Shown one piece after another: positions 32,875-54,671 of a stretch of DNA of 64,000 nucleotides. This DNA comes from Psococerastis gibbosa. Taxonomy: Eukaryota; Arthropoda; Insecta; Psocodea; Psocidae. The translations under genes and the position numbers were made by a program. Under the pieces are notes generated by a model. It had not been told where the DNA came from, searched no databases, and saw only the letters and a list, made by a program, of their open reading frames with translations. How positions within the stretch are numbered: position 1 is the stretch's first letter; each line of letters opens with the position of its first letter. The stretch is taken from the NCBI GenBank assembly GCA_963971405.1, contig OZ020486.1, positions 19,429,419 through 19,493,418 of the forward strand, given 5' to 3'.

Positions 32875-33139
32875 CCACCGGCAAATTTACTTGAAAAATT
32901 GACTTTGTCATTGACGTTTGTTTTGTTTGAAGGAGACTATTCTGTAGATACTTAACTTATCTATTATAAAATAAGGTATAATATGGTAGAGACTTATTAA
33001 TGATGTCTGCTACCATATATATCATAACTTAATTTATAATAGATAAGTTAAGTATCTACATAAATAGTCTCATTAAAACAAAACAAACGTCAATGACAAA
33101 GTCAATTTTTCAAGTAAATTCACCGGTGGAATGGCCGCC
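32875..33139. mobile_element. GGCG foldback element, 265 bp
   Basis: Tips GGCGGCCATTCCACCGG mirrored. Arms carry, on both sides, CTTGAAAAATTGACTTTG, TCATTGACG, TTTGTTTTGTTT, then TAGATACTTAACTTATCTAT. The centre has ATGTCTGCTACCAT. Compared with the copy at 54400, the inner arm and centre are the same but the outer arm segment is different. Confidence 0.82.
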
Positions 33140-33154
33140 TTAGGCTAGCTTATC

Positions 33155-33200
33155 CCATGCTAACCCCCCCCCCCCTCGCAAATCTATAGCTACGGCCTTG
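33155..33200 (+). mobile_element. Solo right end of a hAT-like element
   Basis: A C run followed by CTATAGCTACGGCCTTG matches the right end of the element at 30401-30476. Confidence 0.4.
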
Positions 33201-33287
33201 ACACTATATAGGTAGTTAGGTAATGGGCTATTTAAGGTGAGAAAATGTAAATTTACTGAGAAAGCTGGTATTTTTCATCTGACCATT

Positions 33288-33735
33288 CAGAGGCGGTCCC
33301 AGACGTCATAAAAGGGGGAGGCTCTTTTTAATTTTTTTTTTAGAAAAATAGGGCTGAAATATTGGGGTGTTACGCATTTTCAGAGCAATAAGGGTCCTAA
33401 ATTACCGGGGATCAATAAAATTGTGCACAAGAAGGGCTTGGGGGTCTCCCACGGGAGAATTTTTTTGAAAAATAGGGCAGAAATATTGGGGTTTTACGCA
33501 TTTTCAGAGCATTAAGCTTTCTATATTACGGGGAATTATTAAAATTGTGCAGAAGGGGGGCTTGGGGGTCTCCCCCGGGAGAATTGTTTTGAAAAATAGG
33601 GCAGAAATATTCCCGTTTTAGGCATTTTGAGTGCGAGTGCAGTTATATATCTATTTTAGAGGCAATGAATATAACTGACTTCCAAGGGGGGGGGGGGGCA
33701 ATTGCCCGCAGTGCCGGTCGCTGCGTCCGCCTCTG
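33288..33735 (+). mobile_element. hAT-type element carrying tandem GGGTCTCCC units
   Basis: Ends CAGAGGCGG and mirrored CAGAGGCGG; flanking 8-mers TGACCATT (33280-33287) and TGACTATT (33736-33743) form a target duplication with one change. Inside, units of roughly 125 bp repeat: CTTGGGGGTCTCCC, GGGAGAAT, GAAAAATAGGGC, GAAATATTGGGG, TTTTACGCATTTTCAGAGCA. Non-coding. Confidence 0.78.
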
Positions 33736-33743
33736 TGACTATT

Positions 33744-34579
33744 TTAATATCTTTGACGAGACTGGAGAGCAAGGAATGAATTTATTTCATCAAAAGAATT
33801 AGGTCATTATTTGTTAGAAAACATATTTTGAAATCTCGGCATTAAAAGATGTGTTTGTAAATTTCGCTATTGCCTCGTGGGCTTCCTGTTACTTCTAGTT
33901 GTTCATTAGCCAACAGAACCCCTAGTAAATCTTCAAATTGTTACCTCGCATCAACATTCTCCATAGGTCGATTTAATAACTTTTCTGGGACAAAAAGGCC
34001 AGGGGATGAGTTGTGTTTTATATGAATGACGTGCGGACGGTGCGGTATAGTAAAAATTAACTGAAATGAAAAAGAAATAGATATATTTCCCCCTAATTAC
34101 AATGGCACAAGAACAAAAAAAAAATAATAATTGGAAAATACTCACCCTCTAAAATAGAGAGAGGGTGAGTAAGTAAAAATTCGGATGTAATTCAGGGAAA
34201 AGTGTTCGTTTGCATGTACATAGTGGTATATAATATAAGTTCAAACTTAGGTATGGATATTAAAGAGGGCCCCTTTGTACCACACGTGTATAGTATAGGG
34301 ATGTTAAGTTATGGTTAATTGCGCCCTTGAAGACTACTATTCCCATGATAGCAATAGCATGGTAACTTTGAGCGCGTCTCTCCTAGCCGTTGATAGTCCA
34401 TTGTCTATAAACTTCCACGGCCAAGGGTCACATATTCACATACAGAGCTTGGCGTGTCTCCAGACTGACTAACAAGTAACTTGTCTATGGTTAATTGTGC
34501 CTGTATAATTACAAAGGCTTTCACGGCCAGAGTCGGATGATGGGGCAAAGTAGAAGCCGTGGTCGATTGTAGGTCGGTC
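33744..34579. other. Spacer with a short palindrome
   Basis: ACTCACCCTCT and AGAGGGTGAGT at about 34140-34171 form a small perfect hairpin (CTCACCCTCT..AGAGGGTGAG). Nothing else recognised. Confidence 0.4.
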
Positions 34580-51506: not shown

Positions 51507-52838
51507 AACAATTATACCCTTATAATACAAATAACCTGTGGGCCCCCAAGTTAATCAACTTGTCGGGGGCTCGCACAGTAAACGCTGTAGATGATGCAAC
51601 AACATGTTTTCTATTTCACGTCTGTGTTAGCAAAAAAAACTTAGTTTTAATTTCAAATCAGTTTAATTCATACCATTTAAAATTGTAAGTTAACGTAAAG
51701 AGTAATTATAGTAAAGTAAAATAATTAAAGTAAAAAGTAAAATAATTAAAGTAAAAAGTAAAGTAAGTTTTAAAGCGAAGTATTTTAATTCAAAAGCCAT
51801 TTTTTAATTTTCGTTTTTATCTCTCCTATTTTAGTTAATTTTTTAAGTTGTATGGGCAATTCATTAAAAATTTTCGTTATACTATTTAATCTATTCCCGT
51901 ATTTGTTGTAGGCTGGTTTCCAATTGACGTTTCTTGGATTTCGAGTATTGTGATGTGAATTGTTTTCTGTTTCTATGTTAAAATTCTTGTCAAAGAAGTT
52001 ATATTTAATTACTTTAAATGTATAGAGTTGTTTTAGGTTTAATATTTCGAGGTACTTATATTTATCATCAATGTGGCTAAATTTTTTGTTTAGTTTGTTT
52101 GACAATATATTCTTAATTATTCTATTTTGGGCATTTTGCACTTTATTTACATAAGTGTTTTCGTCCCTGCACCAAGATGTTATTCCGTAAGTTATTACAG
52201 ACTCTATCAGGGCGTGATAAACATTTTTTATTACTTTCCTTGGCATCCCGTATTTTAATTTATGGAGAGCTGCACTCCCAGATCGCAGTCTTTTACACAA
52301 TGACTCTATATGCGACTGCCAGTTTAGATGGCTGTCAATGGTTAATCCCAAATATTTGTGCTCTTCTACCATGTCTATATATTGTGTGCAATTGCAGGTA
52401 TTGCTGGAGTGCAGACATCCATGTTTGTGGAATATGTATTTGCTTTCAATTTGTTTGGGTCCTCTATTCCTCATGTGCATGATTTTTGTCTTTTGAAGTT
52501 AATTGCCAGACCGAGGTCATGGGTCAGTTGTTGAATTTCTCCGATTGCAGAGTTCATTTTCTTGCTAGCTGCTTTGACATCTTTGTTTGCAATTACGAGT
52601 GCCATATCATCTGCGTACATAAATACCTGCAAACCTTTTAAGTAGTCTATTAATTTATTAATCGTTAATATATATAAATACGGTCCCAACAAACTGCCTT
52701 GTGGGACACCGCTGTCCCATGCGCCTAATTTACAATTTTGCTCATTTAGTCTGACTGTTGCTTTTCTGTTTTTTAGGTAATTTTTGAACCATTCAAGCTC
52801 GATGCCGCTAATTCCTATTTCCTGCAGTTGTTTTGTTA
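51507..52838 (-). mobile_element. Second LINE copy, truncated, related RT
   Basis: Two minus-strand frames follow the same protein: up to about 52490 it reads LQEIGISGIELEWFKNYLKN, GVPQGSLLGPYLYIL, VFMYADDMALVIANKD; then, after one frameshift near 52490, HMRNRGPKQ, HKHGCLH..CNC, EEHKYLGLTIDSHLNW, YHALIESVITYGITSWC, to a stop at 51785. It is about as similar to the first LINE as a sister family would be. Its 3' UTR has CCCCGACAAG..CTTGGGGG near 51541-51567. The 5' side is cut inside the RT domain where an ATT tail of a third element begins. Confidence 0.82.
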
Positions 52839-53045
52839 TAATAATAATAATAATAATAATAATAATAATAATAATAGTTTATTTCCCAAAATAAATTCAG
52901 TTACATAAGTTTATACATACATTTTTTTTTCTTTGGGTTGATATTGATGGTAGAGAAAAAATACCTATCATACACATTGAATTTATTAGTAATCATCCAA
53001 AAATCCAAAGTTGACGGGCCCCGCACAGCCCAGCCCAACATCCTG
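52839..53045 (-). mobile_element. Third LINE 3' end with ATT tail
   Basis: On the minus strand: GGGCTGTGCGGGGCCCGTCA, TGTATGTATAAACTTATG, GGGAAATAAACT then an ATT run (52838-52876). This is a LINE 3' UTR and tail abutting the truncated 5' side of the second LINE. Confidence 0.6.
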
Positions 53046-53925
53046 TCCCCAATGACTGTAAGACAGAGAAAGATTTCCTAATATACCTGTACCTATTGGT
53101 TAGAAAAGGGTTAATTTACGCATGCGAACAAGAGAAAAATTCCCGTCAGAATAAACAGCATATACAGACGTGTACAGTATGAACAGTAAGCAGCGTCTCC
53201 AACAATCACATTTTTTATCATCCTTGTTGACTGTTTAACTCATTATTATAGAAAATAGCGCTCAAGAAAGTTTCAAAACAACCCTATTTTCCGATGAAAA
53301 TTCCATTGGCTATTTACCAAACTCGTTGGTATACTGGGGAGATTTTAAAATTCTGCTGACGCCGAGGTATCCAATTTGGATGATCTTTCCCTTAGGCACA
53401 TGGCCGGATCTGAAGGAAATCGATAATGCTAAGGAGTTTGATTATTTAGCGAAAGAAAAATTATGGAGGTAAATAGAGTTGGTAATCCTATTGATTTCCG
53501 TTGGAAATATCTCAACTTCCGTTGCTTGAGGAAGGAAACCTCATTTCGGTTACATTCATTGTGAAAATGGTTTTTACTTTTTTCTTTAAATTCGTTTTCA
53601 CCCCACATAAGTGTTAACTACAGTACATCTATAGTATATACCTTGCAGTTAAAACGAAAAAATCGGAAGTTTCCTGGGGTAAAAAAAATTACGGTACCTT
53701 CCTACATAATATGCAAACGTGTTAAATAATGAATTATCAATCAGTCTATAATAACTTATTGTTGGGTTAAAAATGTAAACAAAACCATTTTAGAATAGCA
53801 CTTTGCATTATAAAAACTATTTTTTTACATTTTTAATCCCAGAATAAGTTATGGGTAAACGGCAAAGTAGGCCTGCAGCAGCAGCAGCAGCGGGAACGAA
53901 GACATTGGTCACCCTTTGATTAATT
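53046..53925. other. Spacer, nothing recognised
   Basis: Short mirrored motif GGGTTAAAAATGTAAAC / TTACATTTTTAATCCC near 53765-53845; a GCA run at 53876-53890. Confidence 0.4.
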
Positions 53926-54272
53926 GGTTTTTATCTTTAATTTATTTACTTGTAAGTTATACAGATTTTGTCTGTTGAAATTGTAGAGGACTACTTTATG
54001 CACAATATCGTATGATCGAAGGTAGTTTTTAATTTTTGGTGTTGTAATTTTTTAATGAACTTATAATGGAGGGCTAAAATTTCACGCATTATCAAGTTCA
54101 TGGAGAAATGGCAGCGCCTAAAACTACAAATACTCTATGATATTGTGTATGAAGTAGTCTTATACAACTTAAATAGATCAAATAGCTCAATAGCTTAGTA
54201 AATTAAAAAAAATTGAAACTGACTGATTTTTGGGTGGTACAGGGTTGACCCTTATCTACGGTCCATACCCTC
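53926..54272. mobile_element. TTAA-type foldback family, decayed copy
   Basis: AAATTGTAGAGGACTACTTT and its mirror GAAGTAGTCTTATACAACTT, plus the right tip CCATACCCTC followed by TTAA (54273-54276), match the family at 4744. The left tip was not found. Confidence 0.55.
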
Positions 54273-54399
54273 TTAACCTAAAGTTAAAAATGAACAACAA
54301 AACAATTTTTCAATACGAAGTGCCACTCTAGACTTGTTCTGTTTACATTTTTAACCCCTGGTTAAGTTAATACAACGCGGCATAGTTGGCCCGCAGTAA

Positions 54400-54671
54400 G
54401 GCGGCAATTCCACCGACAAATTTACTTAATTTGTGATTTGAGATTTTTTGTTTGTTTTGTTTTAAGGAGACTATTATGTAGATACTTAACTTATCTATTA
54501 TAAATTAAGTTATAATGTGGTAGAGACTTATTAATGATGTCTGCTACCATATTATAACTTAATTTATAATTGATAAGTTAAGTATCTACACGATACACAA
54601 TACACAATAACACGAAACAAACAAAAATCTCAAATCACAAATGAAGTAAATTCGCCGGTGGAATTGCCGCC
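54400..54671. mobile_element. GGCG foldback element, 272 bp
   Basis: Tips GGCGGCAATTCCACCG mirrored; perfect 3-bp duplication TAA (54397-54399, 54672-54674). Both arms carry TTTGTGATTTGAGATTTTT, TTTGTTT, then GTAGATACTTAACTTATC. Centre ATGTCTGCTACCAT. See the sister at 32875. Confidence 0.85.

Follow-up and report, generated by a model that had tools for sequence, protein, structure and literature searches.

The closest described counterpart of the elements reported here is Galileo, a transposon of the P superfamily in Drosophila whose subfamilies are defined by their terminal inverted repeats (TIRs), with chimeras of two subfamilies numbering 12 of 170 (Marzo et al. 2013, PMC3573991). Some Galileo copies carry both TIRs of one subfamily around the center of another (PMC3573991); chimeric TIR pairs and TIRs lengthened by mirrored internal sequence are explained by exchange or by repair of TIR2 templated on TIR1 (PMC3573991, PMC4168063); and the elements have 7-bp flanking duplications, TIRs of up to more than 1 kb, and chimeras with non-matching flanks (PMC3573991). 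Work in yeast describes single-strand hairpins at short inverted repeats that lead to inverted duplications, and intramolecular fold-backs where a 12-bp spacer separated the inverted repeats (PMC7467729, PMC6103520). Here we analyze two foldback elements, A and B, in a window of 64,000 nucleotides of the insect Psococerastis gibbosa (contig OZ020486.1, positions 19429419-19493418), together with their relatives in the 409 Mb and 68 contigs of the genome searched. To our knowledge, there is no settled view of how miniature inverted-repeat transposable elements (MITEs) gain long, matching terminal repeats or of how new families of them originate. We think it reasonably likely that A and B are PIF/Harbinger-like MITEs in which one end was copied onto the other, probably via fold-back at an internal hairpin, and which were then amplified.

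The outer arms of A (32865-32941 and 33063-33139) are 77 nt long and 95% complementary, and those of B (54394-54448 and 54623-54677) are 55 nt long and 91% complementary; the inner arms measure 45 nt (91%) in A and 52 nt (92%) in B. As single strands the elements fold as near-complete hairpins, with energies of -118.9 kcal/mol (z = -30.5) for A and -94 kcal/mol (z = -21.4) for B, and none of 200 shuffles of either was equally stable, so these foldbacks are not chance. Rfam gave no match in the window. A sequence-only reading of the window had described outer segments present on both arms of each copy, a dinucleotide after GGCGG that reads CC in either arm of A and CA in either arm of B, and tips, inner arm and center common to the two, all of which we found; element A is likewise present, but its tip begins at 32865, 10 bases before the 32875 given there (Table 1).

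A DNA search with A returned 1375 first-look candidates, of which the best 40 were scored; the 39 places other than the query were 91-95% identical, and all 40 also matched on the opposite strand. With B, 40 of 1691 candidates were scored and the 39 others were 89-92% identical, giving at least 40 copies in each family among the best 40 scored. Thirty-eight of the 40 B places were fetched. Two loci, L052 and L067, had no acceptable tip pair and were dropped. Within each family the left and right consensus arms, outer as well as inner, mirror one another, and the two consensuses differ in the tip dinucleotide (usually CC in A and CA in B), in a 23-24-base segment, and in one base beside the center. 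The arm differences are family-wide and not private to the two window copies; arm matching had been presented as a property of the single copy, and this did not hold, each arm type being a separate many-copy family.

The 30-base consensus center, GGTAGAGACTTATTAATGATGTCTGCTACC, is identical in A and B and has CAG on one side only; its hairpin is GGTAGAGAC...GTCTGCTACC, with a loop of 11 nt. The same center recurs, with one or two changes, in a D/D copy (L103), whose arm type D is a mosaic of B-like and A-like halves, and in a copy of another type (L106). From this identical asymmetric center it follows that A and B have one ancestor. Two old, unrelated families with ordinary trees and no switching in any lineage would fit the many copies per arm type and the arm-independence of private changes, and the sequence-only reading had itself set separate old families against its idea of switching. 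A separate many-copy family per arm type is nearly what we found, but the common center and module, together with the unlike-arm copies and two-ended relatives described below, contradict unrelated origins, which we consider very improbable.

Exact 3-bp matches between flanks were seen in 36 of 76 A and B copies and in 26 of 47 copies of the E and F families described below. Where A and B copies had TAA or TTA on both sides, 31 of 47 matched and 16 differed in the middle base (13 TAA..TTA and 3 TTA..TAA). A length of 272-275 bp in the window, terminal inverted repeats, and at least 40 places per family correspond to MITEs, and the 3-bp target duplication, preferably TWA, corresponds to PIF/Harbinger; on the strength of these duplications and of general knowledge of the superfamily, the best reading of A and B from sequence is as short non-autonomous DNA transposons, PIF/Harbinger-like MITEs. 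They share with such (Tourist-like) MITEs their short, non-coding form, inverted terminal repeats, high copy number, and mostly TWA duplications of 3 bp, and differ from them in a foldback of nearly the whole length with exchanged mirrored segments. Literature searches, limited to open-licence papers, listed no account of PIF/Harbinger MITEs with mirrored sister families. The flanks of one B copy (L017:1504-1771) form a perfect 14-base mirror, AAAAATTCTCCTAA / TTAGGAGAATTTTT, as though the element had gone into a palindrome.

The two arms of 76 copies (38 A and 38 B), oriented by the asymmetric center, were compared position by position. In A, 212 of 224 changed positions were altered on one arm only, 11 in the same way on both arms, and 1 differently on both; the corresponding numbers in B were 216 of 229, 10, and 3. 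Shared changes slightly exceeded the shuffled expectation, which was 4.6 for A (p = 0.002) and 4.0 for B (p = 0.003), and six of the 11 in A fell at one CpG site, as did six of the 10 in B at marker position 21 (T/T 6, T/A 3, A/T 2, A/A 24, others 3). The left-right distance within a copy, set against left-right distances to other copies, was 0.055 vs 0.057 in A (p = 0.05), 0.080 vs 0.084 in B (p = 0.0095), 0.062 vs 0.084 in E (p = 0.001), 0.051 vs 0.058 in F (p = 0.05), 0.050 vs 0.111 in the C-outer type (n = 6, p = 0.01), and 0.400 vs 0.401 in the asymmetric E'/F' type (p = 0.29), with 19 E, 13 F, and 13 E'/F' copies having placeable tips. In A and B the nearest arm was a copy's own partner just 3% of the time, against 1% by chance. 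By these distances the arms of one copy are not sisters within A or B, contrary to the pairing that the sequence-only reading had proposed to look for, and mirrored subfamilies are visible in E and C-outer; its observation that the arms of one copy agree better with each other than with a sister copy is correct between A and B copies and barely applies inside the families. In its strong form that earlier idea would mean arm-to-arm correction still going on in single copies, and this could draw on the small excess of shared changes and on the slightly lower own-arm distances in B, E, and C-outer. Frequent per-copy concerted change in A and B is nevertheless ruled out by the preponderance of one-arm changes and the near-equal own and other distances, and the concentration of shared changes at a single site or marker and the rarity of own-partner pairing also speak against correction, which we regard as scarcely credible. 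The earlier claim that arm-to-arm copying is required survives in part: to place a new segment on both arms takes copying, or a replacement made twice to the same effect, and independent drift does not achieve it, but neither is called for in every copy. Arm switching at the founding of families and subfamilies is supported by the common center, by copies with unlike arms, by two-ended relatives, and by a second case, all treated here; later private mutations hit the two arms independently.

Longer relatives of A and B have unlike ends. Each of the 40 scored matches to element H of the window lies on one strand only, and all 12 of those fetched have an end 1 of GATAATGTCATTGACGG type, like D and A, and an end 2 of GATGAGATTTTTG type, many with a single change. 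The H core (window 20169-20573; L013:1929-2356) has, on one strand, a short reading start, ATGGCGTCGTC, which may be left over from an autonomous parent. A clear two-ended case, H2, lies outside the window: its query (L099:469-884) had 40 scored places of 2244, the 39 others being 89-93% identical, and 10 of the 40 were read in addition to the query. The ends of H2 comprise ~41 mirrored bases with unlike sequence inside these, and all 11 aligned copies run on as TGTCATTGACG type at end 1, matching the A/D segment, and as GAGATTTTT type at end 2, matching the B segment, some with single changes. Positions 41-52 of arm A agree with H2 end 1 at 12 of 12 bases (0 of 20,000 shuffles) and those of the D arms at 10 and 11 of 12; arm B agrees with end 2 at 11 of 12 aligned or 10 of 12 ungapped (627 of 20,000 shuffles), and the opposite pairings, D arms included, reach 6-8 of 12. 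A/D and B thus begin to differ close to the point at which the H2 terminal repeat stops.

A second case was found with the query L031:127-330, for which 39 of 40 scored places were read with their neighbors and which yielded the asymmetric family E'/F' together with a mirrored one, E/E. A mirrored F/F family was predicted from E'/F' and then found, the query L110:174-253 giving paired F ends, of which 13 were fetched (L156-L168). Among 54 loci typed, 16 were E'/F', 15 E/E, 10 F/F, 2 E3/E3, and 11 ambiguous. E'/F', E/E, and F/F surround the same one-sided core, and a side-specific base (G left, A right) is present in 12 of 15 E/E and 7 of 10 F/F copies. Subfamily markers are mirrored: one E site is C/C in 9, G/G in 7, C/G in 1, and C/A in 1 (n = 18; Fisher 4.1e-4 on 17), and one F site is G/G in 6, G/T in 4, and C/C in 3 (n = 13; Fisher 0.0035). 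The 30-mer center of A and B is found again at the right inner end of E/E, with 30 of 30 bases equal in several copies, and its hairpin there adjoins a 61-bp module, M, that is single and of one polarity; A and B have this module in mirrored form on the two sides of the hairpin. The point at which A and B turn back is thus an inverted repeat equal to the hairpin of E/E, which presumably existed before them, and we infer that copying by fold-back once turned round at this hairpin.

These relationships suggest how the mirrored families could have formed. Asymmetric parents with a common terminal repeat and different subterminal segments would give rise to mirrored daughters when one parental end is copied over the other, such that B would mirror one parental end, and D, as well as A (whose inner half is D), the opposite end. 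The mirrored tract of A, B, and D also includes module M and turns back at the imperfect hairpin, presumably present beforehand, which would account for the asymmetric center. Copying may have been primed by hairpin fold-back or have occurred by arm-to-arm conversion in break repair, for example after excision, and each daughter would afterwards have been amplified by transposase in trans. The 11-nt center loop is comparable with the 12-bp spacer in the yeast work cited above, which was assayed on chromosomes, not transposon families, and serves as a model of mechanism only. A more tentative extension, which we consider possible but less likely than not, is that new foldback families in this genome arise by repeatable choice of end: a parent folds at its internal hairpin in repair and either end overwrites the other, producing paired sisters (B vs D/A; E vs F), with the hypervariable tip trinucleotide renewed in mirrored form as well.

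With a neutral query, the A inner arm (30 of 40 scored places read), and with the query L090 (8 of 40 places fetched), copies with unlike arms were recovered. L090 and L129 are A/B, L131 and L132 are D/B, L085 is A/D, and L130 is probably A/B, its right arm having a deletion and being typed B or D. L090 is flanked by exact GTA; the other five unlike-arm copies have non-matching flanks or damaged tips. An argument from polarity (A or D left and B right in L090 and L129-L132) was discarded, since four of these came from the search with L090, itself an oriented query. At L037:1030-1317, L106:1431-1693, and L090:1719-1886 the same inner arm or module is enclosed by other mirrored arm types, and the L037 arm resembles a mosaic of F'-like and E'-like pieces.

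Such copies bear on an account by exchange between elements only, in which a foreign arm would be acquired at one end by ectopic conversion or crossover and the same arm type at the other by a second exchange. The unlike-arm copies, the mosaic arms (D; L037:1030-1317), and the mostly non-matching flanks fit this account, and Galileo chimeras are explained in this way (PMC3573991). It needs two exchanges with the same type of donor for each mirrored family, however, across several families (A, B, D, E, F), and alone it does not explain why A and B turn back at a hairpin already in E/E; we judge it unlikely. Several points weigh against copying of one end over the other. No copying event was observed, and we infer the direction from parent to daughter; E'/F' could be a recombinant and not a parent. 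In the window H copy, end 2 resembles B weakly (full-arm scores of 23 for B, 22 for D, and 20 for A), the match of B to H2 end 2 sits in T-rich sequence (~3% of shuffles), and no source was found for the outer half of the A segment (GAAAAATTGAC). Unmatched arms are no bar to amplification, E'/F' being multicopy, and since an exact 3-bp duplication flanks one of the six unlike-arm copies (L090), some of these may be products of exchange between copies.

As a process, the copying of one end onto the other would resemble that in Galileo, copies with TIRs of two subfamilies (L090, L129, L131, L132, L085) and mirrored internal sequence (module M) being found here too. The elements differ from Galileo and the P superfamily in duplications of 3 bp instead of 7 bp, and further from Galileo in their size of ~220-430 bp, in the multicopy state of the unlike-end family E'/F', and in having sister families that each mirror a different end of one asymmetric type. 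By analogy, the families described here may be a variation on a known kind of TIR exchange and mirroring. Two sister families, each seemingly with a different end of an older lopsided element on both arms, point to a route to symmetrical elements. Candidate parents, half-switched copies, and mirrored daughters are all present in one genome, many copies each, and this coexistence means that copy counts and simple repair assays could distinguish copying by fold-back from exchange between elements and from selection for ends that match.

Table 1 Positions in the window of elements A and B, their parts, and other foldback or related elements.
Feature	Position	Strand	Basis
Element A, whole foldback element (family A)	32865..33139	+	pairing, genome search, folding
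Outer segment of family A, left arm	32893..32916	+	
Outer segment of family A, mirrored on right arm	33088..33111	-	
Asymmetric 30-base center of A; imperfect hairpin, proposed turning point	32985..33014	+	
Element B, whole foldback element (family B)	54400..54671	+	pairing, genome search, folding
Outer segment of family B, left arm	54428..54450	+	
Outer segment of family B, mirrored on right arm	54622..54643	-	
Asymmetric 30-base center of B; sequence equal to that of A	54519..54548	+	
Element H, longer relative of asymmetric form whose ends differ; D/A-like at end 1, only weakly B-like at end 2 in this copy	20169..20573	+	
Shorter foldback element, same kind of tip	12302..12439	+	
Shorter foldback element, same kind of tip; tip trinucleotides unlike between arms	22681..22832	+	
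Shorter foldback element, same kind of tip; tip trinucleotides alike	29805..29946	+	

Tip trinucleotides were counted in 20 other tip-sharing elements of the window and loci, some of them related copies, with 94 module pairs excluded. The trinucleotide of GGCG-NNN-WTTCCAC was equal on both arms in 11 of the 20 (expected, 2.8; none of 10,000 shuffles reached 11) and is highly variable between copies, even inside one family; the six C-outer copies have GGG/GGG, CAT/CAT, CCC/CCC, CCC/CCC, TCC/CCC, and CCC/GCC. Its origin as a target duplication was ruled out, the two sides being mirrored and not direct repeats. A 40-bp perfect foldback at 14497-14536, barely more than two tips (GGCGGCTATTACACTG), is probably a deletion product. 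Composite elements, with a foldback inside the center of another (GACTTA / TAAGTC junctions), occur in the window at 11003-11386, 34583-34970, and 56657-57040 and outside it at L004:509-899, L016:2047-2437, and L033:2670-3052; the presence of the nested pair in six copies suggests that it spread as a unit, and the inner elements have part of the H core. Minus-strand open frames at 49792-51504 and 52474-52878 match the reverse transcriptase family RVT_1 (E = 6.1e-31 and 1.8e-12) and are probably pieces of non-LTR (long terminal repeat) retrotransposons.

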